Positions 165-25,334 of a stretch of 32,736 bases of DNA are shown here, in pieces. The stretch is from a virus. The stretch spans positions 1 to 32,736 of the IMG/VR virus record IMGVR_UViG_3300035698_015632. The stretch is one strand, 5' to 3'. The first letter of the stretch is position 1. Every line of letters starts with the position of its first letter. The notes below the pieces were generated by a model. It made no database searches, was not told where the DNA came from, and saw only the letters and a list, made by a program, of their open reading frames with translations. Made by a program: the position numbers and the translations under genes.

Positions 165-189
165 TTGTCCAGTTGATTGTTAGTGAATT

Positions 190-214
190 GGGGCGCGTTA
201 AAGCGCCCCTTTTT
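190..214 (+). terminator. Rho-independent terminator
   Basis: A perfect 7-bp GC-rich stem (GGGGCGC / GCGCCCC, 190-196 and 203-209) with a six-base loop GTTAAA is followed at once by five T's (210-214). It lies 25 bases downstream of the stop of the repeat-bearing gene and upstream of the glycosyltransferase gene, so it separates two transcription units. It also argues against the TTG start at 177, which would translate through the hairpin. Confidence 0.88.
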
Positions 215-248
215 GTTGAAATTTATCAATTATTGCTTATTATTCGAT

Positions 249-7607: not shown

Positions 7608-8390
7608 TTATGGCGTAAGAATATCCCCGAAAAATCTTGCTTGTAAATAAGCCTCTTCTTTTTGTTCGGAAAGCTCTCCAATTTCTGGTGAGTAAAAGGC
7701 GTCAAAGCTGATGCTGACCATAGACGCATCTACAGAAGCAAGCCTACTTTTTTCAGCAAAATATTCCAGCTTGTTAAGAATCATGCTTTCTCCCACAATA
7801 TCCTTCGATTGCATTGGGGCATGTTTTAAATAGTATTTGCTTTTTGTTTTTTCTAAGCCCTGAAAAGCCGCGTCCCTTTTGTAGAATTTGGGAAAGAGGT
7901 GGTAATACTCTTGCTTGCTAAGGACAACACCTTGTTCAGAGCTATCCCTTTTGTAGAGTTTTGGAAAAGCGAAATAATATCTGAACTTTTCCACAGCAAC
8001 ATCCTCGCCACTAACATCAAAGAAATCAAAGACCCCTCTTAAAAATGGATAGTATTCAACCTTCTCTAGGTCTACACCCTGTCCAGAAGCACTAGAAGAA
8101 TTTGTCAAGGCATAGTTTCGCTTATACTGCATTTTAGATGGTTCAATTGCGACGCGAGAGGTGTCTACATAGTCTGAGCGTAGAAGCTTGAACCTTTGCT
8201 CCGCAACAATATCCACCCCTTCCATCCCAACGTCCGCACTTTTCTGGTTTGGTTGGTTTGGGTTCCAAAACAGATAGCCGTATTTCCATTGATCAGATTG
8301 ATCGTCAAAATTTCCGATGGTATAATTCTCGAAACCATCATACATGACAATTGCTGTTTGAGAAAAGAATATGATGGGATAAGTGATCAT
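7608..8390 (-). CDS. Repeat-containing tail protein downstream of gpJ
   Basis: From ATG 8388-8390, which overlaps the gpJ stop (TAATG), the product has 260 residues; earlier in-frame starts would lie inside gpJ. After an N-terminal region with YDGFENYTIGNF (17-28), residues about 54-223 form roughly seven repeats of 21-26 residues with a loose consensus V-x-L-x-K-x-EYY-x2-FPK-x-YKRD-x4-QG. The two central copies (131-154 and 155-178) are the most alike. Tyr/Lys-rich repeats of this kind suggest an elongated virion fibre or an attachment surface. I recognise no catalytic motif. It is likely co-translated with gpJ and may bind to or extend the tail tip. Confidence 0.6.
   Translation of the reverse strand: MITYPIIFFSQTAIVMYDGFENYTIGNFDDQSDQWKYGYLFWNPNQPNQKSADVGMEGVDIVAEQRFKLLRSDYVDTSRVAIEPSKMQYKRNYALTNSSSASGQGVDLEKVEYYPFLRGVFDFFDVSGEDVAVEKFRYYFAFPKLYKRDSSEQGVVLSKQEYYHLFPKFYKRDAAFQGLEKTKSKYYLKHAPMQSKDIVGESMILNKLEYFAEKSRLASVDASMVSISFDAFYSPEIGELSEQKEEAYLQARFFGDILTP
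7857..8000 (-). repeat. Tandem 72-bp coding repeat (two closest copies)
   Basis: Two adjacent 72-base units (7929-8000 and 7857-7928) encode YYFAFPKLYKRD and YYHLFPKFYKRD. At DNA level a core of about 25 bases beginning TCCCTTTTGTAGA on the plus strand is nearly identical between them, which marks a recent duplication within an older, more diverged series of about seven units. Confidence 0.7.
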
Positions 8391-11300
8391 TAAGAGAAGT
8401 TGTTGTTTATAACAGCTAATACGTTGCTTGTATCGAGACTCGTGCAGGCAATCAGCCCCGTTTCCCCTTGAGTGAAAGAGGGTTGTTCTCCATCGGGCCA
8501 TTTAAACGTAGTGTTGAAACTTACCGCACCTGCGCCGCTGGCATAAACGTTAATAAGATAAGTTGCGCCATCTCTGACAGATCCAGTCTGCGCTCCGATT
8601 TCCAACGCAGTGCTATTAATCAAGTCCAAGTTCAGAATGTTTGACTCACCGAAATCAATGTCATACGTTCCGTTTTCAACAGTGCTTCCACTAATAAGAA
8701 CTCTCGTAGGTCTCCTGAAAGTGCTTTCTCCTCGAACCTCAAGCGTCGTCAACGCTGGGCCGACAGCATAGCCAGATCCTTCCGAGGACCATGCGCCATG
8801 CCTGTTGTCGAACGTGAGGGCGCGAACTTTAGACTGATACATTCTATCGTAAATTGGAGTGGGAATACTTAGCTCAACAGAGTTTCCTTGTTGGTTCGCA
8901 TTGCTTACGAAAAAGTCGCTGTAATAATCAGCTTGGTCAGTGTAAACATCTAATTCATAACCAATAACATCTTCTGATTGGTGCTTGCTCCAAGAGACAT
9001 TTAAAACAGCCTGCTCGTTACCGCTGGAATCAGAAGGGTAATAAGGGTTTACGTCAAGATCCCATCCAGTGTGGCTTTCAAGCTCCACAAGGCCCATCGC
9101 TTGAGGGCCGCTAATAATCATGCCGCCTGTTGTGAAATCGTCAATAATCGCCCACCATAGATAGCCCGACGCACCATTGTAACCAATGGAACCATTCAAG
9201 CTTGCACGGACGAAATGATCCTCAATGTCAGGAAAAACAGTCGTTTCACCTGACCAGAAAACAACGCCGCTGAAATCTGGGATTTGTTCTTGTGGGGAAA
9301 TGATATACTCGAAACTGTTTGCCGTGACCTTTGGCATCGACAGTGCGCCGCTTGATGGAGCAGGGTTAACAATTGTTTTTGTTAGGGTTGCCGTTAAATT
9401 AGGGAGCGCATGAGAGATTGCTTCGATCCTCAGTGTTCTGAGAGGCCAGCCCGTTAAGGTGTCACCACCCATTATGGCGGGATCTCCCATTGTTTGCCCA
9501 ACCGTAATGAATTCATCCCAATCAGTTGAGAACCAACGAGAAACGGGATTATTACCTTCGTCAAGATATCTCAAATCTATGTATTCCATGTATGGGTATC
9601 TTGCATCTCCAGTCACCTCAAGACCGCCAGAAGGTTGGAGTGCCACGTAGAATTGCGGCTCTTGGGAATTATACGTTCCGCTTGTAAGCGTTTCAGGAAA
9701 ATTAAAATCAGCATTTGTCATTTCTATACGTGGTGACATCGCTGAGTTTTCAGGGTTCACGACTTCAACTATTGTTGACCCGCAGATCTCAGAAGAAACA
9801 GCGCCACCGATTTGCACCGATCTCGCGCAAATTTGAACCGAGCCCGTATTATCTGGGTAATATTTTGAAAGAAAGAATCCGTCATTATCAGGATCTTCCC
9901 AAGTTCCCAACTCTGTCCAATCTCCTGATGGAAGACCACGGCCAGATGCTTGGTAATAATCAGCATTTGATCCCGTTGATCCCTCAATCGAAGCGACTAC
10001 ATAAACAGTCGAGCTATCAATGTCATCTATATTTAAAAATCCTGAAAGCGAAATTGACTGTGGGGGGCCGATAGGTAGGTTGTCGTAGGTTACGTCTGAA
10101 ACGGTTGATGCTACAAACCCAGACTCTACCTGTCCATATTTTTCCGCAGAGTATTCTAGAGCGGTGATTCTCACTGACTGCTGTTCCGTCTCTGTCATTG
10201 TAAGAATGCGGTAATCAGATGCGCCAGAAATTATTCCAGAGTTATTTGCTTGGATTGTCCATGTGCCGCCAATATATCTTTCTGAAAACGGAGCATCAAG
10301 AGTGACATAGCTTGTGTCTCCCGTGAACCCGAAGCCAGATATGCTTTGAGTCTCTAAGAATGTTGGAGCAATATCTCCAGTTTGGTTCAAGCCAGTGACG
10401 CCAATGTCTGGGTTTGATCCCGTATAAGTTGGGTCTCTGTATCCTTGAGGTATTGAAAGCGTAAGGTTGTAAGTGAAGAATGGATCTTCTGGAAAGTCTA
10501 CATACCTATCTAAAGTAACGACATCTTGAGACGCGCTGACATCTAAGGTTCGCCCACCAGACTTCCTTCTTAGTCTAAAATCATCGTAAACAGAGATGAT
10601 ATGACCAGGTCTAGTGTAAAGACTGTTCGAGCCTACGTCAAACGAAACAAATTCAGTTTCTAAACGTTCGGACAAGAGAGTCCACGTTCCTACGCGGTGA
10701 GCTTGCCCGCGACTTGTGCATCCAAATGCTGCAGTTTCGCTCTCTCTTATTCCGTATCTTATAATCCCCTCCATGTCCTCTACCTGTTCGATCTTGGGTC
10801 TGAACATGTCTTCGGGGTCATTCCATCTCACAAGGGCCACCGTGCGCCTCTGAGCACGCTCTGATGAACTGTAATTAAACATTCCATCAATAACATTTGC
10901 ATTGGTGAACTGTTGGACGGGAGATTTTGGGAGATCTTGGACTGGAAAAATTGCTCCACCTAACCAGTAGGTGATTCCTCTAAATGTAGAAGCAAGGTGA
11001 TTCATCACAGTAAAAGCTTCTTCGTTCTCAGTGAGAAATAAGTTGCAGGCAAAACGAGGCTCCATAAACGCGGCCCACAAGAGCCAATCAGAACTTGACT
11101 CGCTAGGCTCAGCGATGCTTGGGTCTCCGCCTCCAGCATTTACCAATTCATCGCAGTATTGCGCAATTTGGTAAAGCGTCCACTTGTCAACTTTGTCCCC
11201 TGGAATATACTCTCCTAATCCATAACGCTTGTCAGTAAGCATGTCGTAAAAAATCCATGCAGGATTATCTGTCCAGACTTTTGTTGACGAAAAACTTCCA

Positions 11301-12322
11301 TCCCAAATTACTGGATATTGAGCACGATTCATGACAATTTTACGATTTCCAATACCAACATCTCCTTCGCTTGCGGTTGTTATCGTTTCCTGGTAAGGGA
11401 AATACTGTGTGGGAACATACCCCACTGGAACCTTAATCTTTTTTAGCCTGAGGCGATAAGCGCGTTGTGGCAAGGTTGGAAAGGTTTTTGCGTCAAACGT
11501 AAGGGCGTTTACAGCGGTATTTGGATACGTGTATCTGAATTCTGTCTTTGCGATAACAGATTCAAGGTGAGTTTGCGCTTGGATCTTTGTTGTTGTCTCG
11601 TCGTAATCCTTTGACACTCTTGAAATCTTTATTTTCCAATAGTTGGTTTTTACGTTTGGATCTTTTGTCAAGGGGACGTTAGAGCTTATAACAAACCCAC
11701 CGCTACTTTTCTCTCTCGTAGAAACCCTTTCCACAAGGCTGTAGGCTCCCCCATTCAGACTGAAATATATCCTATAAGAAGCGAAAGTTGGAATGACATC
11801 CCCAGCAATCCTACCCCCACTTGAATCTGCAACCGTTTCCATCAACGCTGGAATCTTAACGTTCACTTGAGCGCTTGTGGCATCAGGATATGTGTTTGAA
11901 GAAAAATAAACAACTAAAGGTCTAGCCTTTCTTATGCGTGTTGATGATGGGAGTGGAAGTGGAACTGCCGCGCCCGCGTAATCTGCTGATCCAAGCTTTG
12001 TTGAAAATGGAGGGATTTGATTATCGTCTCCAAAAACACCTGCTCTGAAATGAGTGCTTACAGAGTGTTGGACAGTTGGGAAATCAGACTGGAGAAAGGG
12101 AACCTCATCAAGGAAAATGGATTGCTGCTTTCTTGTATCTGCGGAACCCACCCCAGATGGACCAGGATCTACCAATCCTTCGATCTCTCCAACACACAGG
12201 GCATCAACAACATGCGCCTCTCCAGTCATGGAAATCGTGTCTGCCGTTTCCCGTGGCTTTCGTTGAGTGGGAGCAGTACTACCTTTTGAACCTTCGATAT
12301 TAAATGGAATTAAATTAGCCAT
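8390..12322 (-). CDS. J: Tail tip central fibre / host specificity protein, lambda gpJ-like
   Basis: A 1310-residue protein (lambda J is 1132). The N-terminus has the family signature KPRETADTISMTGEAHVVDA, then GEIEGL and KQQSIFLDEVPF. Residues 350-425 contain WTDNPAWIFYDMLTDKRYG, then WTLYQIAQYCDELV and EPRFACNLFL, the hub-like part; around 548 comes GTWTLLSERLETEFVSF with TRPGHIISVYDD. The centre is likely a chain of fibronectin III-like domains. The last 110 residues (from about 1200) contain FKWPDGEQPSFTQGETG, a Trp/Gly-rich beta motif I have seen at the ends of other phage tail proteins. gpJ forms the tip of the tail, closes the tube and carries the receptor-binding end. The gene follows gpI with a 10-base gap and lacks a strong Shine-Dalgarno. 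Confidence 0.9.
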   Translation of the reverse strand: MANLIPFNIEGSKGSTAPTQRKPRETADTISMTGEAHVVDALCVGEIEGLVDPGPSGVGSADTRKQQSIFLDEVPFLQSDFPTVQHSVSTHFRAGVFGDDNQIPPFSTKLGSADYAGAAVPLPLPSSTRIRKARPLVVYFSSNTYPDATSAQVNVKIPALMETVADSSGGRIAGDVIPTFASYRIYFSLNGGAYSLVERVSTREKSSGGFVISSNVPLTKDPNVKTNYWKIKISRVSKDYDETTTKIQAQTHLESVIAKTEFRYTYPNTAVNALTFDAKTFPTLPQRAYRLRLKKIKVPVGYVPTQYFPYQETITTASEGDVGIGNRKIVMNRAQYPVIWDGSFSSTKVWTDNPAWIFYDMLTDKRYGLGEYIPGDKVDKWTLYQIAQYCDELVNAGGGDPSIAEPSESSSDWLLWAAFMEPRFACNLFLTENEEAFTVMNHLASTFRGITYWLGGAIFPVQDLPKSPVQQFTNANVIDGMFNYSSSERAQRRTVALVRWNDPEDMFRPKIEQVEDMEGIIRYGIRESETAAFGCTSRGQAHRVGTWTLLSERLETEFVSFDVGSNSLYTRPGHIISVYDDFRLRRKSGGRTLDVSASQDVVTLDRYVDFPEDPFFTYNLTLSIPQGYRDPTYTGSNPDIGVTGLNQTGDIAPTFLETQSISGFGFTGDTSYVTLDAPFSERYIGGTWTIQANNSGIISGASDYRILTMTETEQQSVRITALEYSAEKYGQVESGFVASTVSDVTYDNLPIGPPQSISLSGFLNIDDIDSSTVYVVASIEGSTGSNADYYQASGRGLPSGDWTELGTWEDPDNDGFFLSKYYPDNTGSVQICARSVQIGGAVSSEICGSTIVEVVNPENSAMSPRIEMTNADFNFPETLTSGTYNSQEPQFYVALQPSGGLEVTGDARYPYMEYIDLRYLDEGNNPVSRWFSTDWDEFITVGQTMGDPAIMGGDTLTGWPLRTLRIEAISHALPNLTATLTKTIVNPAPSSGALSMPKVTANSFEYIISPQEQIPDFSGVVFWSGETTVFPDIEDHFVRASLNGSIGYNGASGYLWWAIIDDFTTGGMIISGPQAMGLVELESHTGWDLDVNPYYPSDSSGNEQAVLNVSWSKHQSEDVIGYELDVYTDQADYYSDFFVSNANQQGNSVELSIPTPIYDRMYQSKVRALTFDNRHGAWSSEGSGYAVGPALTTLEVRGESTFRRPTRVLISGSTVENGTYDIDFGESNILNLDLINSTALEIGAQTGSVRDGATYLINVYASGAGAVSFNTTFKWPDGEQPSFTQGETGLIACTSLDTSNVLAVINNNFS

Positions 12323-12332
12323 GAATTATAAA

Positions 12333-12950
12333 TTATGAGTTATACCCGTTTATATATTGCCTGTAATCTCCTGGATAACCGATATTAAGGCTTCCTTCCC
12401 CAGGGCTCTCTTCTGAAGAGCCCGAACCAGTTGCCCTGCCATAGACAAAACGAACGCTAATTGGAATTGGGTGTATGATCATCTCTCCATAGCCTACTGG
12501 CAGTGGTTTCCCTTGTTTTGCGGGCTGTGGACCACCACTAAAAAGGTATGAATCCTTTCTTGCAGAGTCCGAACTTTTACCAAAATCAACCTGTGGGTCT
12601 GGAGCCATGAGGGCGGAAACCACAGCCATTACAATTGCTACAACCAGTTGGATCAACAAGCTGACTGGGTCGATCCCCTTTCCTTTGACTATGGGAAAAA
12701 TATGAACGTCTTCCCCCCCTATAGGGCCATCAATTAATCCAACATCCTCTCGATCATTGAGAATAATATCCTCTCCGATGACAAAATTGTAGTCGATTCC
12801 TTTCTCTGCTGTTTCTAAAAGATATTTGCAAAACTCGTTTTTTGTATTCGCGTTAAAAGCGCAGACCATCTCCCTTATGGTTTTGACCTTAAGCTCCCAC
12901 TCTCTTCCAAATTTTCGCCCTAAGCGACCATGTAAATATATTTTACTCAT
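12333..12950 (-). CDS. I: Tail assembly protein, lambda gpI-like
   Basis: The protein has 205 residues. Residues 1-90 follow the gpI pattern: MSKIYLHGRLGRKFG, an acidic/hydrophobic beta-grasp-like domain, and YNFVIGEDI. A hydrophobic segment at about 95-116 (SLLIQLVVAIVMAVVSALMA) could span a membrane, as in other gpI proteins, and a Gly/Pro-rich tail follows, including VGYGEMIIHP. It lies between the gpK-like and gpJ-like genes exactly as in lambda, overlapping the gpK gene by 8 bases. gpI is needed for tail tip assembly or gpJ loading but is not a major part of the finished tail. Confidence 0.85.
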   Translation of the reverse strand: MSKIYLHGRLGRKFGREWELKVKTIREMVCAFNANTKNEFCKYLLETAEKGIDYNFVIGEDIILNDREDVGLIDGPIGGEDVHIFPIVKGKGIDPVSLLIQLVVAIVMAVVSALMAPDPQVDFGKSSDSARKDSYLFSGGPQPAKQGKPLPVGYGEMIIHPIPISVRFVYGRATGSGSSEESPGEGSLNIGYPGDYRQYINGYNS

Positions 12951-13680
12951 CCATTAAACTCCTGTGACGTATGACTTTATAAATTCTCTTTAAAACTCGA
13001 TCATTAATTTCTGTTACCCGAGATCTTTGACCTGCGAGATGTTCTAAAATACGATTGTTTCCCCAATAGAGACCACAATGGTTTGGTGTTTTTGTTCCCC
13101 CAATCTTAAATAGAATGGTGTCGCCCTTTTGAATTTTTTCCAAAGGGATATCTGCGAATAATTCTTTTGGGCAGTTCTCTTCAAAATCTAAAAAGTTGTA
13201 ATTTTCCTCTGATGCAAAACTCCATTTGATATGTATGTTATTTTTGACGCGGTAATAATCCCTATTTAATAGATGACACTGCCAAATTCCACGGATGAAG
13301 GGTCTTCCGAAAAAGGGTGCAGGGCGATAGTTTTCTGGCTCGTAATAGTGCCAAGTATCATTAGGGTTGACATATAGCAACATGGGAAGCTCTAACTCCT
13401 CCGATAGCTCTTTGTCAGACGAAGAAAAGCGATTGTATTTCTCGCGCAAAAAAGTATCATTGTGAGAATGGTAAATTGTAAAAAATCTTGTTGCTCTATA
13501 ACGCCTTGTGTATTCCCTTGGGTCAATTTTAAACTTCCTTACTTTGTCTCTATGAATATTCTCACATGGGACCACTTCGGACTCTCCAGAAATAAAATCT
13601 GCATAGATCAAACCACACGCCTCATTTGGTGCTTCGCTAAGAGCGTGCTTTTTTACTTGTTCTCGAATTGATTTGTTCAT
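12943..13680 (-). CDS. K: Tail tip peptidase, lambda gpK-like: JAMM domain plus NlpC/P60 domain
   Basis: A 245-residue protein with two enzyme domains. The N-terminal JAB1/MPN (JAMM) metalloprotease domain has Glu20 in EACGL, the zinc-binding H71-S-H73, and S86-x-x-D89. The C-terminal NlpC/P60 domain has Cys135 (GIWQCHLLNRDYY), His201 (NHCGLYWG) and His214 (LEHL), in the usual order of the Cys-His-His triad, although the common DC is replaced by QC. In lambda, gpK acts in tail tip assembly; the P60 domain could also cut peptidoglycan during entry. The start overlaps the upstream gpL stop (TAATG). Confidence 0.88.
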   Translation of the reverse strand: MNKSIREQVKKHALSEAPNEACGLIYADFISGESEVVPCENIHRDKVRKFKIDPREYTRRYRATRFFTIYHSHNDTFLREKYNRFSSSDKELSEELELPMLLYVNPNDTWHYYEPENYRPAPFFGRPFIRGIWQCHLLNRDYYRVKNNIHIKWSFASEENYNFLDFEENCPKELFADIPLEKIQKGDTILFKIGGTKTPNHCGLYWGNNRILEHLAGQRSRVTEINDRVLKRIYKVIRHRSLMDE

Positions 13681-14696
13681 TATGATTTCGTATTCTCCAT
13701 TTCCGCCCTTGAAAGACCTGGATAAGCAAACATCCTTAGTTTGTCATCAGGGAAGCGGCAGCGACAACCGTCGATCCTTTGTGAGCAGGCGTCCCTCAGC
13801 CAAAATGCTGGTTGAGATCGTGTTGGGTATAGGTTCTGTGTCGAGGTGTGTGCGGTGCGGCAAACGTAAAAATAATGCTTGAATGGGTGTGGAACGTCGT
13901 CTTCAGTTCCTTGGTTTGTGACAATCTCAATGAAATCTCCAACCTCATAAGAAACTCCCACTGCCCATGTCCCACGATCATTCAGGGTATACCCCCAACC
14001 TGCTGGAGCGGCTTCTTCGAATTTCCTATTGTCAACTGTGGCAACGGGCTTCGTGTAATCAACCCCACTTCTTACGGTAACATCTCCTGCAAGAATTGCG
14101 GCATTGAACGAACACGTCGAATCATTTCGATAGCTCGCATTGCATTGGGTGGCGAACATACGGGCTCTAGGAAGGTGGACTCCTTGGACCTCTAAGATAG
14201 AGGCGCATTCGATTTCAACGAATTCTTTATTTTCTTGAACGATATTATCAACGTAATAAATATCCGCAGTAACTGTTGCGTCTGGGTCGTGAGAGCCGAA
14301 CGGGTTTGTCCCACCCCATGTTTGACCATCTAGAAACTTTGCGAACGTTCTGTTTCGTGTAAACTTCGCACCAACCATTCCCAAACTCTCTCTCAAATAA
14401 TAAGAAACGATACCATCTGGATTGCCTATCGTTAACCTTGGTCGTGGTAGCGTAGAACCATCTCCCTTGATTGCGTTGTTTTTAAAGTCTATTGAGATTG
14501 GCATGTAATGTCGAAGTGGGTCTCCAAAATAGATCCCTCTTCCGCCCTTCTCTTCTTTAAAGTTGTAGAAGTAAAGGACTTGCTGAGATGGGGGAAGCTT
14601 GACACCGTCGATCATAGACATGTCGAGTTCAAAAAGCTCGATCATCGTTGACGGGGCGAGACTATAAGACTCTCTTGTTACAATTTTTTTTGCCAT
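13680..14696 (-). CDS. L: Minor tail protein, lambda gpL-like, with inserted carbohydrate-binding-like module
   Basis: A 338-residue protein, about 100 longer than lambda gpL (232). The fold's beta domain is followed by the gpL cysteine pattern CNASYRNDSTC (Cys185, Cys195) and DACSQRIDGC (Cys304, Cys311), which by analogy with lambda coordinates an iron-sulphur cluster. Between the two halves, residues about 241-299 hold an insertion, GTWAVGVSYEVGDFIEI...HYFYVCRTAHTS...FW, that follows the W-Y-GD-Y-C-H-W pattern of CBM5/12 chitin-binding modules. The same kind of module begins both gpM-like neighbours. The gene is TAATG-coupled on both sides. The gpL call is strong; the module call is from pattern only. 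Confidence 0.87.
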   Translation of the reverse strand: MAKKIVTRESYSLAPSTMIELFELDMSMIDGVKLPPSQQVLYFYNFKEEKGGRGIYFGDPLRHYMPISIDFKNNAIKGDGSTLPRPRLTIGNPDGIVSYYLRESLGMVGAKFTRNRTFAKFLDGQTWGGTNPFGSHDPDATVTADIYYVDNIVQENKEFVEIECASILEVQGVHLPRARMFATQCNASYRNDSTCSFNAAILAGDVTVRSGVDYTKPVATVDNRKFEEAAPAGWGYTLNDRGTWAVGVSYEVGDFIEIVTNQGTEDDVPHPFKHYFYVCRTAHTSTQNLYPTRSQPAFWLRDACSQRIDGCRCRFPDDKLRMFAYPGLSRAEMENTKS

Positions 14697-15214
14697 TATT
14701 CTTCGTCTCCTACGAATCGAGCGTTTATGTCATTGATATTGAAAGACTTAAACTCATGCTTCCAAGACGTGCAAACATATTTCCGTTTCTCAAATCCATT
14801 TGGAGAAGTGAAAAAGAATGGGTCTACGCCTCCCTTGAATTCAAAAAAGGCAAGAAGACTTTTCGTTTCCCTTGTATCGATACCTTGAAACACACACCCA
14901 AATTCAGGCCGTGAATAAGTCAGTCCTTTTTCTGAGATTTGAGAATATCCATCACCAAATTTTAACTCTACCAAAAGTGGGGTGGTATCAATAGACGAGC
15001 TATAAGTAGGTGTCCAAACATCTTCAAAGTTCCACCCAGACGTATCTTGAAACTCTAACCAAGATCCAGTGTCTGTTAGAATATTGCCAGAATTGTCATC
15101 TGTGCGAGAAACGTAGTAATGATACGAAGAGCCGCTTTCTATAACGTCATATTGACTATAATTTTCCCCAGACGAATACTCTCCAATCTGAACTTGATAA
15201 ATTCCTGATTCCAT
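14696..15214 (-). CDS. M: Minor tail protein, lambda gpM-like, second copy
   Basis: The product has 172 residues. Residues about 66-172 match the gpM/phage minor tail family: EDVWTPTYSSS, KFGDGYSQISEKG, SLLAFFEFKGG, FFFTSPNGFEKRKYVCTSW. The N-terminus (12-52: YSSGENYSQYDVIESG, YYV, SWLEF) is a separate CBM5/12-like module absent from lambda gpM. It is paralogous to the product of 15236-15802. A good AAGGA precedes the start with 5 bases spacing. gpM joins the tape measure to the tail tip early in tip assembly; its stop overlaps the gpL start. Confidence 0.84.
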   Translation of the reverse strand: MESGIYQVQIGEYSSGENYSQYDVIESGSSYHYYVSRTDDNSGNILTDTGSWLEFQDTSGWNFEDVWTPTYSSSIDTTPLLVELKFGDGYSQISEKGLTYSRPEFGCVFQGIDTRETKSLLAFFEFKGGVDPFFFTSPNGFEKRKYVCTSWKHEFKSFNINDINARFVGDEE

Positions 15215-15235
15215 TTTCTTCCTTTTCCATTGTTA

Positions 15236-15802
15236 TTACACTCTTCCTTGTTGACCCTCTCCTTCTAATCCTGCGCTTACGATAGGATTGAATGATTGTC
15301 TAAATATTGCAGAAATAGCATCTTTCCTAAATGATGAATAGCTCATCCCCCAATTCGAACATACAAATTTCTTGGCCACATTGTAGGGTTCTGGAAGGGT
15401 ATAGGTGAACGCATATTTGCCGCCCATGAATTCGAAAAACGCCAAAAGACTTTGCGTTTCCTTGGGCTTTCTGCCAACAAAAGAAACCTCTATATTCTGC
15501 TTCAGGGAATTGATCCCATCAGACTCTCTTTGTATAATCCCTTCACTTAACTGCCTACTTACGGTTCTTGGGGAGTTGTTCGTAGAGACAGAATGGGTCG
15601 GAACCCAAACGTCAGAAATCTCAAAGCCGATATCTCCAAAGCGTTTCCAAAAAGAGTTGGACGTTGTCGCAGGGGCGTTTCCTTGGTTTTCGTCCACGGC
15701 AGACACGTAGTAAATATCACTGTTTTCTACAATGTCATACCTTTCATAAGAGGTTCCACCGCTGTAAGCTTGAACCGTAATGTTATGTATAATGCCTGCC
15801 AT
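15236..15802 (-). CDS. M: Minor tail protein, lambda gpM-like, first copy
   Basis: The product has 188 residues and the same plan as its neighbour: an N-terminal CBM5/12-like module (YSGGTSYERYDIVENSDIYY...FWKRF, about 13-55) followed by a gpM domain (DVWVPTHSVS, QRESDGINSL, SLLAFFEFMGGKYAFTYTLP, KFVCSNW). A short tail GEGQQGRV ends it. The FGDGYxQ strand found in most gpM proteins is degenerate here (LSEGIIQRESDG), so the two copies have diverged. It is the first gene after the tape measure, where lambda M sits. A weak AAGAAG precedes the ATG. Confidence 0.83.
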   Translation of the reverse strand: MAGIIHNITVQAYSGGTSYERYDIVENSDIYYVSAVDENQGNAPATTSNSFWKRFGDIGFEISDVWVPTHSVSTNNSPRTVSRQLSEGIIQRESDGINSLKQNIEVSFVGRKPKETQSLLAFFEFMGGKYAFTYTLPEPYNVAKKFVCSNWGMSYSSFRKDAISAIFRQSFNPIVSAGLEGEGQQGRV

Positions 15803-15833: not shown

Positions 15834-18800
15834 TTAAAGTTTGCTTGAGTTTTTATTTAGAGACCCACCTGGACGTTTCTCTTCTCTTATAAATTCTAGA
15901 ACTAATTGCTTTAACTTTCCAGAAAAAGCACGTCCTTCGAGAGTGTTTGTATTCGTCGTATCTTCATCACCCTTACCATCTGGGGCGCTTTGGTTGCCAC
16001 CTTTTCCGCCGCCACCAAAACTTATGTTAATTTCAACATTGGTATCTCCGCCGCCACCTGTCATTGGAGCAGCAGCGGGAGCGGCAAGAGGAGAGCTTGT
16101 TGACCCACCGACAACCCCGCCGCTTGCGAAACCATTTGCGCGAACAACCCTTGTGCTTGGCATTGGGGCGGAAGGAGCGCTCACGGAAAGTCTTGGAGAG
16201 TTTATGATAGGGCTGACAGCGCCGCCGCTTGCAAACCCACGAACTGAAGGAGAAGGGTCTGAGAAGCGGATTGGGGTTGAGGTCCGCATGCTTGTGCTTG
16301 TATTCGTCAAATTAGAGATATTGCCGCCTCTATTGAACGTGCTAATATTGGAAGGGGAAAATACGTGACTTGAAGAGAAGCTGTTGCTAACAGTGTTGCT
16401 AATTGGTGAGAGGCCATTAGACTGTCTAATAGTATTCGTTGCTCCCATCAATAAATCTGGATTAGAAGCTTCGCTTGAAGACATCATGAGAGGCGCAAGG
16501 CTTGATGCGCTTGTTTTTGAAGGCATCCCTAAGCTTGTCGTAAATTGTTTGCTAACACCAGAGAGAACGTCCCCGTCCCTGAAACTTGCGCTTCCTATTC
16601 CATCAATCATTCCACCGCCCGCAAAAGAAGGCGTTTCATTTGGAACGTAATGCGCGGCACCTTGAGAGGAGAGCCACTTGTTAAGCTGCTCAACTGACAT
16701 GTCTTGACCCAGCTTGTGATTCTCTACTCTTCCAGCCCCGTCTGAACTGTGATGCTCAATACTTACTGTCCCGTCTGGTCTCACGCGAGTAATTGAGCCC
16801 TTTCCTTGGATTACTGACTCTTCAGTTGGTGGTGGAGATGGGGCAAGCAATGCGCTCGCACCTAGAGAAAGAAGACCTGGGAGTAACGCCTCTCCGAACT
16901 TCCCAAAAAGCCCCGTCTTATTGCCCTTACCAGAAATTGTAGTAGGTTTCATGTCGGAGATATCAGCCATATTTGGAGTGCTAATACTACCTCCAAAAGG
17001 ATCTTTTCCTAATGAGGCGACAGAGAAAGGCGCTGGGGTGTCTGTTCCAGCAAATTCCATTTTGTGTAAGAGGCTCGATGTGCCACTGTCATCCCCTCCC
17101 TTGCCTCCGAAAAGGTTGCCTACGCCGCTGAACGTGTTTCCAAAGCTTGATCCAAAATCTTTAAGAAAACCCCCACCAGAAGGAGCGCTCCCACTTAATG
17201 CGCCGCCGATGCCACTGACTCCACCAGTGATGGCACCGCCGATACCGCCCATAAGAGCGCCTTTTCCGATATCCTCTCCAGTTACTGCCGCAGTCAAGCC
17301 ACCAACTCCCGCGCCAACAAGAGCTTGCGAGAAGACTGATCCAAGTAACGCCCCTAAGAACGCCCTTTCTATCTGACCACCCGCAGCAAATTGACGGTTG
17401 TTGATTGTTTCTAATGCGCCCTTTCCATAACGGTTTACAGCGTCTTTCTTTAAGATGAATGTTCCTGCTGGGAAATTCCCAAGAAGATCATCTTTCGTGC
17501 CGCTTCCACCCTCTAACATTCCACCGAAGGCACTTCCTTGAACGCCCCCAAGATTGGGAAGTATGCCGCCATCAATTTTTGCTTCCCCACGATTGAGGGA
17601 CTCCATGAAGTCTTTTCCGTAGAAAGAGACAGCTTGGGGATCAAAGGCAAATTCTCCGCCCGTTACAAGAGCGGGCACTCCCGAACGTGTTCCACCGCCA
17701 TTGTTGAAAGAATCGACTATTCCGCTGCTTGCCTTGCTGTTTCCAAATAGGCCGCCGATGAAAGTTCCGACTCCAGAAGTCGCCTCTCCAAAAGCTTGGT
17801 CGAAGTGGGTCTGAGAAAGGTCTGAAAACATATCAGACAGCATTTGCCTGAAACTGTCGCCCATGGCATCAAAAACACTTATGCCCTCTGATTTTAAACG
17901 CTTGAAATCTTGAGCACTGGAAACAACCGCTTCAGAAAGCCCCTCTGAAATCGTGCTGGCAACATTGGACCACGCAACCTCTATTTCGGAGGTATCTTCA
18001 AGGTCGGCTTTTAAAAGTTGGAACCCTTGACCCAAGCCCTCTTTAATCTGTTCTATCGTGGAAAGAACTTCTACGTCCTTTTCAAAATCAACCTTAATAT
18101 TAAGCTTAAGATCCTTGTTTGCGCGAAAAGCGATTTCTTTCAAATCAACAATAAGCCTTTTACGCTCTTCATCTGTTAGAGTAGGTGAAATGTCAATGCG
18201 CATTTTTGCTTGGCGAATTAAGCGGGAAAGATTAATGCCTGATTCTGCGACGGTGGATGCCGTGGTTAGTGGGCTGAGATTTCCTAAGCGGGTCTCATTG
18301 ATCTCCCCTGTAGGGCCTTTAAAGCTTGAAAGAAACTTACCTAACTGAGCGATTCTTTCGTTCTCTTTGAGTTTCGCTGCCTTCGCTTCAGGGACTGGTT
18401 CTTGAGATGGGGCTCTGTTGGTATTGTTTCCACCGAAAGCCCCTCGAAGAGACTGCGTAAAGGGTTGGAGGAAATCTGCGATTGGTTTGAAAATTGAACG
18501 AACCACTGTTTCAGATGGCTCAGTTTCAGGCTCAATTCCTCTGGTTTTATTCGCGGTAGCGACGGCTTTTGTCAATTGTGACGCGATCTCAGGTGATTCA
18601 GTTCCAGACATGGCTTCCTTAACCCTGATCTTAAGTCTGGCCTTAGCGTTTTCAACAGCGGCATTTCCAACAGCGGAAGCTCTCTCTAATACGATTTTAT
18701 CAGCAGGGTCTAAGCCCTCTTGCCCGAGTAAGAATTTCGACCTGTCTGCCGCAGTCCCACTTCGAGCTTTAAGAAGTGGGGTCGCCTTGTCTAATGCAAT

Positions 18801-21800
18801 TTGCCTCTCGCCAATACTTGTAAGCTTTTCTTTTTCTATTTTTATTTTTCCTTCAAGGGCGCGAGCACCTTTCAGCACCTTTCTATCGGCCTGTTGGTCG
18901 GGTCCGTAATTGTCTGTAATCACGGAACCAATTAACGATTCCATAGCATCCCCAACGGTAAAACTGGGGCCTTCCCATACAAGCGTACTGATCGCCTCCT
19001 CAAGCCTTGTGATATTCGCAAGGGTGTCTGCCTTTTCGTTTGAAAGAAAACCCTTCTCTTCTTTTGACATCGCGAAATCTGTCGTAACCTGCTTATCAAG
19101 TTGTAGAACGGCCTTATTCACAAGATCTGCGCTTTTTGCCTCTGCGGTTTTACCTAGATTGAGATTGACTAAATCTTGTAATTTGAGACTTGTTTCTCCT
19201 GTATTAGAAGCGATGCTTGGTAACGCATTAAACTTATCTCCAAAAGCAGTCTGCATCCCTGACACGATGGCGTCCGCTGTCTTAGACTCGTCTGCCTTAA
19301 ACAGGTTTTTGAACGTTTCATTTACAATCTCAGTTCGTTGCTCAGACAACTTCTCAGCAGAACGAGCGATGTCCTCTAAAGCTCCGAATGATTCCTCAGA
19401 AACGCGTCCTTCTGCGCCTGATATCGCCCCACGAAGAGAACCACCTTGGTCTATTGAATCTATAATGCCCTGAATAACAGACGTTTCCGCGCTACCCTTT
19501 CCAACACCACTTAGTTGAGACTGTATGATTCCAGAGGATTTACGATCAAACTCTTCTGCAATAGATACCTTGTTTTGGGTTTCGTCGAACGCTCCTTTTA
19601 CACTTGGAAACAGACGGCGGAATTCAAGCTGAGCAATAGTAGATCCCCTTCTTCCTCTCTCTCCTTCGACCCCGCCAAAACGGCTTTGCCTTGCAGACCT
19701 ACCAAAATTTGCTAATGCGGGAGGAGTCTGGAACCCGAATATATCGCCACCGAATGCCTGAGACTTTTGAGCACGAAACAAGGCCCCCGTTTGAATTTCA
19801 TTAGAGTCTACAAATTTTTGAGAGTTTACTGTGGCGTCAAAATTTATCTTTTCGACTTGAAGAATTTGGTTGTTTTTGATTTTCTCTAACTTCACTTGTC
19901 CCAGACCAACCTCTTTAGCAACAGCAAGCATCGCCCCAGAGTCTTTGTCCAATACTTCAAGAATTTTCTGATTAATGTTTTCACCGCCCTTTGACTTTGC
20001 TTGAACCCCTTCTTTTCTAAGGAAAGACCTTAATGCTTTGGCAAAGTCTTCTTCAGCACCCTCTATTTGACTCAGTCTCTTTATCTTGACCCCTTCCAAA
20101 TCAATGCGTGTCTGTAGGTCTAATTGCCCTTTTTCTGATAAGTTCGGAGCCAAAGCCTTTGCTTGTTCGCTCGCTCGATTCAGAGTAACGTCCCTTACAG
20201 CATTGTTTCTTATGTTAGTGAGACCTGTTGTCAAGTTCAACGATCTTGATAACCCACCAACCTCGCTTTTAAAATTTACAAGTGCTCGTTGACTGTCCAG
20301 TAAGACCTTGGCCAAGGCGTTACCCTCAAGCTTCAAATCTTTTACCCGTTCTAACAACACAAAGAAGTCAAGTGCCGAAAATTCATCAGTCAAACTATTG
20401 GTTAGGGTCACTGCACCTTCTGAGCTTATTCCAAATTTAGAAAGTGCAAGGTTTAACTCGTTAACAACCTCTTTGGAATTTTCGCCTTCAGTGATTCCAA
20501 AGGCTTGAGCCTTAGTGAAAGAAGCGCCTATATCCCTTCGCCTCTCCCTTGTTAAGTCTGGGGCATTTCCGACTATACGTCTAATCAAAGGGTCTATTTC
20601 TTCTCGCGTTGCGCCGCTTTTCAACCCTGAAAGTAGGTCTCTTTGAACTGAGTCGGCAGAAAGAATTAAAAATCCAGATGTCTTATTCAAAACAGCGAAG
20701 TCACGGTCAAGCTCTGAACCAACTCTTTTCTTATTCAACTCTTTTTGGGTTTTTGAAAGTATTTCCTCTTGTTCGGGTTGATTTCCTTGGGTTTTTCGGA
20801 ATTTTTCTGCAAGTCCTGCATCTCCAGTATTTATCAGTATCGTCTCCAAGGTTTGCTGGAAGACAGAAGCTTGCTGAGCGGTGATGTCTGCGCCTGATTC
20901 AAGAATCGAATTAAATTTATCTTGGACCTTCATGTATTCTTGGATAGAGTTCGTCACCTTGTTTTGTGCTGAAACAGCACTCTCTGCCTCTTTCGAAAAG
21001 TCTTTGACACTCTTGTTCATCGGATCAAGAGCCTTTACAAGTCCAATACCCAATCCAATAAGACCAATTCCAATAACACCCTTTTTCCCAAATAAAGCTC
21101 CATAGCCGATACCTTGCGCTGCGCTTCCAGCAACTGTCGCTGTTTTTGATGTTGCCCCTTCAGTCCTGTCCGCGACTTGATCAAAAAAGCCCCCGACTAA
21201 TGGAGCGAGAAACGCTGCACCGAAGCCAAACGTAGAACCCCTGCCCGAGCGGGCTTCCTGTCCCTGTGAGAACGCCCCTCTTACAGACCTTCGAGCTTCG
21301 CCACCTAATCGACCGCTTCCAACCTGTTTAAGCAGTCTATCTCTATCTCTCTTGTCTGTCCCCATTAAACCGCTGAGAAAGCCGCCCTTCCTTAATTTTG
21401 TTAATTCCTTTTCGTTTTTAATCTGAAATTCAGTAGCTAGACCTTCCTCTCTCCTTGCCTTGAAGGATCGTGCCAATAAATTTGATTGCTCCCTAGAGGT
21501 TTCTTGAAAGAACTTTCCTCTTTCTGTGTTTTTTGGTGCTGTTTCCAGCTTCCTTATTTCTGACGGAGAGAATCCCTGTTCAGATAGCGCGGAGGACGCC
21601 CTTCTTTTTGTGAGTTCTTGGAAATCCTCTCTTGCGATGCCCTTTTCTTTTCCCTCGATAAAAGCTGCTTGGACACCCGTCAACCTTCTGTCTTCTCTAA
21701 TCTGTGAAATTCTCGTGGAGATCGCTTTAGTGCCCTCAAGTGTCGCGCCTCTTTTCCTTGTGGCCGCTTCTTTCTCTGACTTTAAAGATTTTTGAATGGA

Positions 21801-24800
21801 GGTGTTTGCCTCCCTGAACACTTTTTCAAAGAAATCACGACTTACCTTGCCAGTTGAGTTTTTGAGTTTCTGGATTTCTTGGAGACTGAAGCCCTTGCCC
21901 TTAAGAGACCTTGTTGTTTCCTGTAACGCGATTGCTCTTGCGTCCGCAGGTGTCTGCTTGCTTATTTTCCCCGAAACAAAATCAGACTTGACTCTTTCCA
22001 ACCTGTTATTTTCGATGGCTGCCTTAACCTTCAGTCTTCCCTCGATTACAGATTGGTTTACCTGAGAGGCAAGAGGTGTCGCGCCCCGCACTCCAGAGGC
22101 GAGTTGAGAGACCCCAGGTAGGTTTTTTTGACGTGTGCGAATTTGACGTTGTTCGTTAGCAAGGCTTCTTGAAAGTTTTCTCGTTTCCTTCGCTGTGTCT
22201 CCAGTGAAGTTGGTTAGTCCATTAAGGGCTTGTCTTGCCTTCTTAATGTCAGTGCCGTAGTCTCTTATCTTGCCGCCCGTCTCCCTAGCTCTTTTGTTCA
22301 GTTGCTGGAAAACATTCTGGACTTCAATGTCCGTTAGGTTCTTTGTGGAAAATCCACCAACTAAATTAGGAATAAGTCCATTGGATGCGTTTGCACCTGC
22401 GCCCGCGCCCGCGCCCGCGCCCGCAAATTTTACGTTCTCTCCACGATGAGCAACTAAAGCGTCTTGTAGTGAGTTTTCTTGGAGCGAGTTGAAAACGCCG
22501 AGTCCTTGAGGATTCGCTGAATTTTTTAATGTTGCATTTGAGCCGACACGAATAGCATTAGAGGCGTCACTTGGGGAAACCCCTAAGCCGCGAAGCGCTC
22601 CCACTTCTCGCTGGACTGACTCGCCCAAGACTGTTGCGAATTCAGGAATTTGCCCTGCTGCAGCACGCTTTATCCCCCTTAGACCACCAGCATCCAAAAC
22701 CTTAAAATCTGGAAAGGAGAAATTTGGAGGTCTTGCATCGAAAAGCTTAAGACCATCTTTTTTCATCGCACCAAGTCTTGCATCAATACCTATCTTGGCC
22801 TCTCTTTGGGTAATAAGTCCACGGTCTATCGCATCTTGAACGTCCATTTTTGCACGCTTCGCAATAAATGAGCCACCTTCCCCTTTTCCTAAAATTTCTA
22901 CTCCATGCCCTTTTCTGGCAAGGTGAACTTGGTTGAACAAGCGATTCTTTTCATATTTCTGGCCCTGTTGATAAAACTTTCCGATTGCCTGCGGACCAAT
23001 TCCAGGATATGTTCTTTTTAGGAATGACTCAAACTCGTCGTCACTTTTTCTACGACTGAAAACTGCTTTTTGACCATTGAATTTTATGGTTTTAACTATT
23101 CGCGTAAGGCCCTCGAATCTTGCGAGATTTGGGATTATTCCATTCGCGAATCCAAAGCTTCTGATCTTATCGACAATATCGTCTGGTCGAGAGCTTCTAT
23201 CCACGGACTTAACAAACGAGGACATGCCAACATTAGATTTCATTCTTGGGAATACCTTGTTCCCAAATTTTGAGGCAAGTAAAATTGCTTCTTCGGGTTT
23301 TTGTGCAAAAAGTTTATTTGCTCCGAGTCCTGACTCTTTCTTAAACCATGCGTCTTGTATTAACGATCTTCGCGCTATTGGTGGTAGACCTGCGAGGTTA
23401 GGGATGACTCCAGACGCAACGTTTCTAACGTTTCCAAATTTCTTGAGTGAGGTGATTCCTCCTGCGGCGTTAATCATGTCTCGATTGAACACGGCACTTC
23501 CCGAAGAGCCCATGAAGTTCTCAACAACTTTCTCTCCAGAGTGGGCAACAATTGGACCGCGTTTACCACCGCCAAAATCAAAGCTTGGGATGACTCTTGG
23601 CTTGTCAGAGGGTCTTGCCCCTCCTATACCACTTCGAACTGACTGAAACTCTTCTGCGACGGCTGGGAGGATACCCTCTGCGGCAGTGGGGACAGCGCCG
23701 CGACTTTTCACGGATAGCACACCTCCAGCGCCCCTTCGGAATCCTGCGGTAACTGCGATCCTAGAGTAATTCAACATCTCTCTATTAAGCACTTGCTGGG
23801 CAAGAATTTCCTTTTGGAGAATCTTAAGTAATACCTCTTGTTGAGAAGCGGCACTTTTTGATGAGCGCAATTGGAGGAGGTATTCCCCGCTATTTCTTTT
23901 CAGCACGTCGCCAATGCTTTTTTGCAATTGAATTTGTTGGCTAGTTGCCCCATTAACCACACCCATTGATTTGACAACGTCTTTTGCAAAGACGAAGGTT
24001 TCACGCAAGATGCGAACAAGAATGATGCCCAACGCAATAAGAACTGGACCGCTCAAGACATTGCTTACCCCACGAACAAACCCTTTCGCAAAGTCAGACC
24101 CAATTCCCTCTCCATCAAGGGTATTGTTGAAGCTGTTAATGACACCGTTAAACACGGCGACAATCGTTTTTAAATTATCCCCGATACCAATGTCACCCAA
24201 CTTCGCAAGTGCTTTCTGCAAACCGAGAACACCTTGTTTTGCAAGCGTATCTAAGGTTTGGTTCAAGTTTTCGTTACGACGAATGGCGTCGTCCGTAGCG
24301 CCGAGAGACATGCTTAACGCGCTGTTGAAAATACTATACTCTTTGCTCAAATCTCTTACTACGGCAGAAACGATATTGACTTGACGAACACCACCAAGCA
24401 ACTCTCTAATTTTTGCAGCCTTTAAAACGTCTTTACTGTCAAGAGACGTAGAGATCGCTAAGAGCTTCTGCATTCCTGTTTGTGTCGCATCAATTTCGAC
24501 ACCAAGACTTTTCAATTGATCGATTCTCGAAGAACTTTGAATTCGTGCGAAAATGGTTTTGAAAGCATTACCAATAACAGCACCACCACGAGCAGTTCTT
24601 TGCTGGACTGCCGTTGTAAGAGCAAGTAACTCATCAAAGGAAATATTGGCATCCTGTGCGGCGGAACCTGCACGAGCCAAGGAGTCTGCCAAGTCTTTCG
24701 CGCTAACAGCGAACCCTGCGTCAACAATAGCAAACTTGTTGATAATCTCTGTGGTATTCAAGGCGGACTGTCCAAATCCATTAACGGCGGCGGTAAGTGT

Positions 24801-25334
24801 CTGAACGGACTGTGCAGCGTCAAGTCCAGAAATACGAGTAAGGATCAGCGCGTCACGAGTCCTTATTAAGGTTTCCTCCATGCTCAAACCTTGACGAGAG
24901 AATTCAACTGCGGCCTCTGTTACCGTCGCAAAAGATTGAGCGGTTTTTTGAGCAACTCCGAAAAGCCTAGAACCAAATTTTTCTAAATCTGATGAAGATG
25001 CTCCGAAGATAACATTAATATCTACAAGACTTTTTTCAACAAGGCGTGTCTGGAGAAGAAGCTCTTTAAATGATTCTGTGATCGAACGAACAATACCAAC
25101 GGAAACACCGAACGCAACAACACGGGCGGTAGAAGCTGCAAGTGACTTGTTGAATTCGTTCGCTTGTCCAGAGATTCGCCCTAAGGCTTGGGAAGCGTTT
25201 TTTGTATCGGCGTGGATAGGAATAGGACGTGACGAAATTGTCCTTTGTGCTTGTAAAGCACCTGAGACAATCTGACGCTCCATTTGCCTCGTGTTCGCTC
25301 GAACATCGATAGTAACTGCGGGATTTCTTGGCAT
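15834..25334 (-). CDS. H: Giant tail tape measure protein
   Basis: A 3166-residue protein located between the tail-assembly genes and gpM. Residues about 95-330 match the TP901-type tape measure core (TRLVEKSLVDINVIFGASSSDLEKF, FSRQGLSMEETL, TRISGLDAAQSV). Hydrophobic segments occur at 427-445 and 1411-1436, and a Gly-rich one at 2657-2715, as expected for the ends ejected into the host membrane. Residues about 550-1000 hold inserted regions separated by IPNL-type motifs (640, 730, 892, 984), including a kinase-like loop at 866-884. A 106-residue duplication lies at 1107-1297. Copies of a VPALVTGGEF-type motif lie at about 2552 and 2620, and FAxGG motifs recur in the Gly/Ser-rich C-terminus. 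The protein sets tail length and acts in DNA ejection. At about 0.15 nm per residue an all-helical ruler would be near 470 nm, but the insertions make this an upper limit. Confidence 0.93.
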   Translation of the reverse strand: MPRNPAVTIDVRANTRQMERQIVSGALQAQRTISSRPIPIHADTKNASQALGRISGQANEFNKSLAASTARVVAFGVSVGIVRSITESFKELLLQTRLVEKSLVDINVIFGASSSDLEKFGSRLFGVAQKTAQSFATVTEAAVEFSRQGLSMEETLIRTRDALILTRISGLDAAQSVQTLTAAVNGFGQSALNTTEIINKFAIVDAGFAVSAKDLADSLARAGSAAQDANISFDELLALTTAVQQRTARGGAVIGNAFKTIFARIQSSSRIDQLKSLGVEIDATQTGMQKLLAISTSLDSKDVLKAAKIRELLGGVRQVNIVSAVVRDLSKEYSIFNSALSMSLGATDDAIRRNENLNQTLDTLAKQGVLGLQKALAKLGDIGIGDNLKTIVAVFNGVINSFNNTLDGEGIGSDFAKGFVRGVSNVLSGPVLIALGIILVRILRETFVFAKDVVKSMGVVNGATSQQIQLQKSIGDVLKRNSGEYLLQLRSSKSAASQQEVLLKILQKEILAQQVLNREMLNYSRIAVTAGFRRGAGGVLSVKSRGAVPTAAEGILPAVAEEFQSVRSGIGGARPSDKPRVIPSFDFGGGKRGPIVAHSGEKVVENFMGSSGSAVFNRDMINAAGGITSLKKFGNVRNVASGVIPNLAGLPPIARRSLIQDAWFKKESGLGANKLFAQKPEEAILLASKFGNKVFPRMKSNVGMSSFVKSVDRSSRPDDIVDKIRSFGFANGIIPNLARFEGLTRIVKTIKFNGQKAVFSRRKSDDEFESFLKRTYPGIGPQAIGKFYQQGQKYEKNRLFNQVHLARKGHGVEILGKGEGGSFIAKRAKMDVQDAIDRGLITQREAKIGIDARLGAMKKDGLKLFDARPPNFSFPDFKVLDAGGLRGIKRAAAGQIPEFATVLGESVQREVGALRGLGVSPSDASNAIRVGSNATLKNSANPQGLGVFNSLQENSLQDALVAHRGENVKFAGAGAGAGAGANASNGLIPNLVGGFSTKNLTDIEVQNVFQQLNKRARETGGKIRDYGTDIKKARQALNGLTNFTGDTAKETRKLSRSLANEQRQIRTRQKNLPGVSQLASGVRGATPLASQVNQSVIEGRLKVKAAIENNRLERVKSDFVSGKISKQTPADARAIALQETTRSLKGKGFSLQEIQKLKNSTGKVSRDFFEKVFREANTSIQKSLKSEKEAATRKRGATLEGTKAISTRISQIREDRRLTGVQAAFIEGKEKGIAREDFQELTKRRASSALSEQGFSPSEIRKLETAPKNTERGKFFQETSREQSNLLARSFKARREEGLATEFQIKNEKELTKLRKGGFLSGLMGTDKRDRDRLLKQVGSGRLGGEARRSVRGAFSQGQEARSGRGSTFGFGAAFLAPLVGGFFDQVADRTEGATSKTATVAGSAAQGIGYGALFGKKGVIGIGLIGLGIGLVKALDPMNKSVKDFSKEAESAVSAQNKVTNSIQEYMKVQDKFNSILESGADITAQQASVFQQTLETILINTGDAGLAEKFRKTQGNQPEQEEILSKTQKELNKKRVGSELDRDFAVLNKTSGFLILSADSVQRDLLSGLKSGATREEIDPLIRRIVGNAPDLTRERRRDIGASFTKAQAFGITEGENSKEVVNELNLALSKFGISSEGAVTLTNSLTDEFSALDFFVLLERVKDLKLEGNALAKVLLDSQRALVNFKSEVGGLSRSLNLTTGLTNIRNNAVRDVTLNRASEQAKALAPNLSEKGQLDLQTRIDLEGVKIKRLSQIEGAEEDFAKALRSFLRKEGVQAKSKGGENINQKILEVLDKDSGAMLAVAKEVGLGQVKLEKIKNNQILQVEKINFDATVNSQKFVDSNEIQTGALFRAQKSQAFGGDIFGFQTPPALANFGRSARQSRFGGVEGERGRRGSTIAQLEFRRLFPSVKGAFDETQNKVSIAEEFDRKSSGIIQSQLSGVGKGSAETSVIQGIIDSIDQGGSLRGAISGAEGRVSEESFGALEDIARSAEKLSEQRTEIVNETFKNLFKADESKTADAIVSGMQTAFGDKFNALPSIASNTGETSLKLQDLVNLNLGKTAEAKSADLVNKAVLQLDKQVTTDFAMSKEEKGFLSNEKADTLANITRLEEAISTLVWEGPSFTVGDAMESLIGSVITDNYGPDQQADRKVLKGARALEGKIKIEKEKLTSIGERQIALDKATPLLKARSGTAADRSKFLLGQEGLDPADKIVLERASAVGNAAVENAKARLKIRVKEAMSGTESPEIASQLTKAVATANKTRGIEPETEPSETVVRSIFKPIADFLQPFTQSLRGAFGGNNTNRAPSQEPVPEAKAAKLKENERIAQLGKFLSSFKGPTGEINETRLGNLSPLTTASTVAESGINLSRLIRQAKMRIDISPTLTDEERKRLIVDLKEIAFRANKDLKLNIKVDFEKDVEVLSTIEQIKEGLGQGFQLLKADLEDTSEIEVAWSNVASTISEGLSEAVVSSAQDFKRLKSEGISVFDAMGDSFRQMLSDMFSDLSQTHFDQAFGEATSGVGTFIGGLFGNSKASSGIVDSFNNGGGTRSGVPALVTGGEFAFDPQAVSFYGKDFMESLNRGEAKIDGGILPNLGGVQGSAFGGMLEGGSGTKDDLLGNFPAGTFILKKDAVNRYGKGALETINNRQFAAGGQIERAFLGALLGSVFSQALVGAGVGGLTAAVTGEDIGKGALMGGIGGAITGGVSGIGGALSGSAPSGGGFLKDFGSSFGNTFSGVGNLFGGKGGDDSGTSSLLHKMEFAGTDTPAPFSVASLGKDPFGGSISTPNMADISDMKPTTISGKGNKTGLFGKFGEALLPGLLSLGASALLAPSPPPTEESVIQGKGSITRVRPDGTVSIEHHSSDGAGRVENHKLGQDMSVEQLNKWLSSQGAAHYVPNETPSFAGGGMIDGIGSASFRDGDVLSGVSKQFTTSLGMPSKTSASSLAPLMMSSSEASNPDLLMGATNTIRQSNGLSPISNTVSNSFSSSHVFSPSNISTFNRGGNISNLTNTSTSMRTSTPIRFSDPSPSVRGFASGGAVSPIINSPRLSVSAPSAPMPSTRVVRANGFASGGVVGGSTSSPLAAPAAAPMTGGGGDTNVEINISFGGGGKGGNQSAPDGKGDEDTTNTNTLEGRAFSGKLKQLVLEFIREEKRPGGSLNKNSSKL
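21444..22016 (-). repeat. Internal ~106-residue duplication in the tape measure
   Basis: Residues about 1107-1191 and 1212-1297 align almost without gaps at an offset of 106: ENNRLERVKSDFVSGK with EDRRLTGVQAAFIEGK, KGFSLQEIQKL with QGFSPSEIRKL, and DFFEKVFRE with KFFQETSRE. The copies are diverged in sequence, so the duplication is old. Confidence 0.75.
22399..22424. repeat. Hexanucleotide GC-rich microsatellite in the tape measure
   Basis: Plus-strand GC(GCCCGC)x4 from 22399 to 22424, read on the minus strand as an Ala-Gly dipeptide run (AGAGAGAGAGA, residues about 971-981) just before a SNGLIPNL motif. The unit is six bases, so slippage alters linker length by whole residue pairs without frame loss. 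It stands out in an otherwise AT-rich region. Confidence 0.85.

Follow-up and report, generated by a model that had tools for sequence, protein, structure and literature searches.

The window analysed here is the whole of a virus record of 32,736 bases, whose minus strand carries a tail cassette in the lambda-like order of tape measure protein, gpM1, gpM2, gpL, gpK, gpI and gpJ:

15834-25334, minus strand: tape measure protein, 3166 aa, PF10145
15236-15802, minus strand: gpM1 (gpM copy 1, distal-tail protein), 188 aa; PF05939 core at residues 66-171, 44.6 bits, cut-off 39
14696-15214, minus strand: gpM2 (gpM copy 2, distal-tail protein), 172 aa; PF05939 core at residues 67-167, 63.6 bits, cut-off 39
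13680-14696, minus strand: gpL (tail hub, Fe-S protein), 338 aa; PF05100 at 85.1 bits, cut-off 25; TIGR01600 at 103 bits, cut-off 70.75
12943-13680, minus strand: gpK, with JAB and NlpC/P60 domains
12333-12950, minus strand: gpI, assigned by position
8390-12322, minus strand: gpJ

gpM1, gpM2 and gpL are genuine lambda-type tail-tip proteins. Both gpMs were recognised by the core profile of the lambda gpM family, with a tail-tube-like fold in the predicted model of gpM2, and gpL, whose PF05100 and TIGR01600 matches lie in the N-terminal 200 residues, combines profile scores above the cut-offs with four cysteines (C185, C195, C304 and C311) that correspond to Cys173, 182, 205 and 212, the [4Fe-4S] ligands of lambda gpL (PMC10721106). 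Genes, gene order, core folds and the four Fe-S cysteines are alike in lambda (PDB 8iyk; PMC10721106). The tape measure protein is very long, which suggests an unusually long tail. Far from the tip genes, positions 177-3409 on the plus strand of the window hold two adjoining ORFs with glycosyltransferase similarity, the first a weak, sub-threshold group 1 match and the second resembling family 9 heptosyltransferases (E = 4.4e-10), possibly providing a phage-made change of surface glycans.

Compared with their lambda counterparts, the three consecutive tip proteins each contain an extra module some 50-65 residues long:

15635-15796, minus strand: gpM1 N-terminal CBM5/12-like module, residues about 3-56; E = 1.9e-10 with an HMM from other phages
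15047-15199, minus strand: gpM2 N-terminal CBM5/12-like module, residues 6-56; E = 2.6e-5 with an HMM from other phages; block pLDDT 86-92
14112-14144, minus strand: gpL Fe-S cysteine pair 1, Cys185 and Cys195, invariant in 35 homologues
13986-14090, minus strand: gpL insert, linker stretch outside the modelled module (residues 203-237), from the alignment; low pLDDT around 200-210
13794-13985, minus strand: gpL CBM12-like module, residues 238-301, directly before Cys304; E = 7.9e-11 with an HMM from other phages
13764-13787, minus strand: gpL Fe-S cysteine pair 2, Cys304 and Cys311, invariant in 35 homologues

This arrangement bears out an earlier note on this DNA, which had described a patterned segment in each of the three proteins, placed at the N-terminus of both gpMs, interrupting the Fe-S cysteine pattern of gpL, and missing from lambda; its span of 13800-15769 falls a few residues short of the modules at both ends. 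The whole gpL insert comprises residues 203-303 (14090-13788, minus strand) and separates C195 from C304, where the loop of lambda gpL is short, at about 22 residues. Lambda also lacks the N-terminal gpM module and has one gpM, compared with two here. Over the full set of stop-to-stop ORFs in the window (30,638 aa), the motif [YW]xxGxxYxx[GY]D[VFI] had exactly three matches, one each in gpM1, gpM2 and gpL, against 0.0 matches per scan across 200 shuffled sets. HMMs were built from the modules of other phages, with the window sequence excluded, and searched against the 346 window ORFs. The gpM-module HMM matched gpM1 and gpM2 and the gpL-module HMM matched gpL, far above all other window ORFs and with none of 2000 shuffled controls scoring as well, and a joint gpM and gpL HMM found all three proteins and no other window ORF. 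The gpM-type and gpL-type profiles are themselves homologous (hhalign 92%, E 5.8e-7; 91.5%, E 8.7e-7 in a second comparison).

We used predicted structures (AlphaFold, AF2) of gpM2 and gpL, an approach the earlier note had suggested, to examine the fold. In the model of gpM2, with a mean pLDDT of 82.6 and values of 86-92 over most of the module, the core superposes on lambda gpM (8iyk_E, Z 9.8), and the 109 residues of lambda gpM align to residues 56-172 only, skipping the module. Residues 6-56 instead match the CBM5 of Serratia ChiB (449-496; Z 6.8, rmsd 2.4 Å over 47 residues). The gpL model (mean pLDDT 79.5) matches lambda gpL (8iyk_L) with Z 18.7, the 232 residues of the latter aligning on either side of the insert; its module mostly exceeds 85, apart from a less well predicted loop near 264-267, and residues 240-305 superpose on the CBM of the Vibrio cholerae chitin deacetylase DA1 (rmsd 1.6-2.0 Å over 49 residues, Z 4.7-5.1). 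The orientation of this module relative to the core is uncertain because the pTM of the model is 0.55. Both modules adopt the small three-stranded CBM5/12 fold in these models; the Z-scores of 4.7-6.8 for the CBM matches are middling, yet cover the whole small domain. Whole-protein Foldseek searches gave results dominated by the cores.

Sequence profiles point the same way. Among the PDB sequences matched by the gpL-insert profile, 8 of 13 are CBM5/12 domains of chitin-active enzymes, mainly chitin deacetylases and ChiA1, each match being weak (E 0.015-0.33), and the top match of the gpM-module profile is a chitin deacetylase, weak when taken alone. Single, sub-threshold matches to Cu_bind_like, DUF4959, SprB and Prion were inconsistent between members and were dismissed. 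That the segments might be lineage-specific parts of the gpM and gpL cores, resembling CBM5/12 by chance, is in keeping with Pfam matches that stay under the cut-off, but the separate, well-predicted fold, the CBM5/12 matches by both sequence profile and structure, and the lambda core alignments that skip the segments leave this reading largely refuted and, in our estimation, extremely improbable.

The resemblance to chitin-active enzymes (1e15, 1ed7, 4ny2, 3wx7) extends to fold, length and the core Tyr and Trp, and the gpL module retains the YxCxxxHTS...P...W pattern of CBM12. It does not extend to the chitin-contact aromatics. CBM12 has a single binding Trp, which we take to be Trp687 in ChiA1, within the GWEP stretch; the corresponding position held Trp in 0 of 53 phage modules (column partly gapped). 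In CBM5 the chitin contacts are made by two adjacent aromatics, Y-W or W-W, and a third aromatic, over the core Tyr and Trp (PMC8449059), and the two positions of the pair were aromatic in 0/53 and 2/53 modules (columns partly gapped). The aromatic hydrophobic core itself is preserved, with the core Tyr kept in 49 and the closing Trp in all 53 of the modules. This residue test was anchored on the CBM12 reference, because a MAFFT alignment with both CBM5 and CBM12 references had wrongly aligned the WW pair of CBM5 with the closing Trp. The PF02839 (CBM_5_12) search that the earlier note had proposed stayed below the 26.2-bit cut-off, with a window best of 21.3 bits for the isolated gpL insert and no score for the gpM modules. 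The loss of the chitin-contact aromatics leaves crystalline-chitin binding of the known kind unsupported, including the suggestion in the earlier note that chitin might be the ligand, and for the same reason we call the modules CBM5/12-like instead of assigning them to the family. A different ligand is possible, and an extra strand aromatic, Tyr or Phe one residue before the core position in 38 of 53 modules, could form a different binding surface.

The retention of core residues alongside lost ligand aromatics also suits a structural adaptor that has kept the CBM5/12 fold and binds virion proteins, for instance by holding side fibres in place or fastening the gpM ring or rings to the gpL/gpJ hub. 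The closest phage fold match to both modules is in cyanophage A-1(L) (8kec; PMC10966104; rmsd 1.4-1.6 Å), where residues 139-184 of 8kec_a match gpM2 residues 6-56 with an rmsd of 1.4 Å over 44. Chain length suggests that 8kec_a is the short tail fibre gp33, a fibre of a contractile tail, in which case segment 134-184 appears to lie in the wedge-binding joint domain that anchors the fibre to the baseplate (PMC10966104), a structural use of the fold. This adaptor role is the main rival to glycan binding, and we consider it unlikely, though well worth keeping in view; its third support, the co-occurrence of gpM and gpL modules, is bound up with the distribution of the modules among phages.

Scans of viral contigs with single gpL, gpM1 and gpM2 queries recovered the 100% identical contig only, and many relatives of gpL and gpM were reached by alignment-seeded scans. 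The closest relative (L015, 43% gpL identity) has the same layout of two module-bearing gpMs and a gpL with the insert. A module-bearing protein seeded these searches, so the following counts describe a survey and not a census: the 134 distinct classifiable gpLs comprise 50 with the module, 75 canonical proteins and 9 with a different insert. Where a partner gpM could be scored, module-bearing gpLs were accompanied by a module gpM (32), a gpM with another N-terminal extension (4) or a canonical gpM (0), and canonical gpLs by a canonical gpM (68), another extension (4) or a module gpM (0). The spacing from Cys2 to Cys3 is mostly 22-23 in canonical and 72 upward in module-bearing gpLs, with no protein between 34 and 71 in the survey. 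On a quick tree of gpL cores the module is explained by two changes, which fits one old gain, so that shared ancestry is the best account of why gpM and gpL modules occur together. We therefore set aside co-occurrence as a sign of functional coupling; it provides no evidence of contact between the modules and does not favour an adaptor.

The module is accordingly best read as an ancient trait passed down within a broad lineage of environmental phages and not as a private graft, and the word "grafted" in the earlier note, taken as a recent event, does not fit. Cores of module-bearing homologues are 25-35% identical, and the gpM and gpL modules are very divergent, some with large extra domains nested inside or alongside, which suits exposed decoration better than the fixed interface expected of an adaptor. 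tblastn of module-bearing gpM and gpL against cultured phages gave mainly core matches, with no module carrier recognised by a method that is weak for such divergent modules. A scan of genome contigs returned eight loci, and those inspected have a canonical gpL, so that no host could be assigned. Two candidate carriers were rejected, a Proteus plasmid match (91% query coverage) with a canonical gpL and a marine single-cell virus match with a different insert and no module.

The inter-cysteine loop of gpL also takes unrelated inserts, coiled-coil-like in S-CBS4 and L047 and of another kind in L052, so it is a general, permissive insertion site. Such permissiveness is what would be expected if the module were a small mobile domain, neutral or of slight use as decoration, tolerated at exposed sites with no specific ligand, as are phage Ig-like domains. 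That both proteins have kept the module despite deep divergence, across 50 distinct gpLs, argues for selection and makes neutrality improbable.

Several related tips showed further variations. The gpL loop holds a coiled-coil-like or another beta domain in L008:2453-3856, L047:2278-3459 and L052:2114-3049, and a CBM5/12-like stretch is present at the gpL N-terminus in L056:2767-4383. A domain of about 70 residues is nested between a strand and the closing Trp in the gpM modules at L025:1044-1796, L174:2228-2983, L176:2228-2980, L097:2719-3453 and L161:479-1219, and Prochlorococcus phage MED4-184 (L010:1923-2495) has a beta-rich insert within the gpM core. The ORF at L183:3-2987 (plus strand), with a gpM core (PF05939, residues 205-310), starts with a metalloprotease domain of the matrixin type (Peptidase_M10, E 2.5e-13, residues 67-168, HELGHVFGLTH), so that the distal-tail ring of this related phage includes a protease. 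In Marine virus AG-345-A17 (MH327491; L215:1513-2505, plus strand) a gpL homologue that lacks the Fe-S cysteine region contains, judged by eye, a cupredoxin-like insert (HPLRIK...YYCSTHGNSMG) within the N-terminal domain. An ORF of 308 aa resembling GIY-YIG homing endonucleases, again judged by eye, lies between gpM and gpL at L025:1802-2728 and L026:2073-2999.

Insertion into the hub Fe-S domain has precedent. In the RcGTA hub (Rcc01696, residues 168-249) and that of marine roseophage R4C (162-243), a putative saccharide-binding domain splits the Fe-S domain between the same two cysteine pairs as in gpL; it has been described as oligosaccharide-binding and as resembling the insertion domain of the phage LKA1 tailspike. 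The RcGTA tail was counted to carry 21 oligosaccharide-binding sites, of which six belong to the distal-tail ring and three to the hub; they were proposed to enable RcGTA to work through the capsule. Putative saccharide-binding sites on the distal-tail ring of RcGTA and R4C parallel the modules on gpM here. The insertion site is shared; the inserted domain is described as LKA1-like in RcGTA and R4C and is CBM5/12-like here, and 6tba_7A and 8gtc_P align with the gpL model over the N-terminal domain only. In Gram-positive siphophages such as skunaviruses, evoDits carry a carbohydrate-binding domain on the hexameric distal-tail ring that promotes adsorption to polysaccharide-coated hosts, and a skunavirus distal-tail insertion of this type restored adsorption to EPS-bearing lactococci (PMC10688798). 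evoDits have an internal insertion in one protein, whereas the modules here are N-terminal on the gpMs and spread over three proteins.

Given the analogous RcGTA and R4C hub domains and the skunavirus distal-tail insertion, we propose that the modules probably make outward-facing, weak, multivalent and reversible contacts with a host surface or capsular glycan other than crystalline chitin, a reading we favour with clear reservations. gpM1, gpM2 and gpL would act as ordinary lambda-type tip proteins, each bearing one CBM5/12-fold module. The lambda tip contains six gpM and three gpL (PMC10721106), making the multivalent collar of the earlier note plausible: 6 or 12 modules would come from a single mixed gpM ring or from two stacked ones, with three more from gpL. 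Facing outward on the tip, they may bind the glycan weakly and reversibly and thereby keep the tip close to the surface until gpJ or fibres, the probable receptor-binding parts, engage the true receptor. Counting against glycan binding are the lost chitin aromatics, the PF02839 score below the cut-off, the structural match in A-1(L) and the middling Z-scores. Of the earlier proposal, the fold and a plausible multivalence stand, chitin is unsupported, recent grafting does not fit, and sugar binding is a role we infer.

The split Fe-S domain allows a more speculative extension, in which glycan capture by the gpL module pulls on the Fe-S domain and helps to open the tip. We regard this coupling as very unlikely; if true, it would mean that the so far unexplained iron-sulphur cluster of gpL helps the phage to sense the host surface. 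Distal-tail and hub proteins with glycan-binding decorations are already known, and we found no description of a CBM5/12-fold module carried by the gpM ring as well as the gpL hub across environmental phages. The modules are compact, expressible adhesin candidates, and the loss of their chitin-contact residues makes the ligand a testable question.
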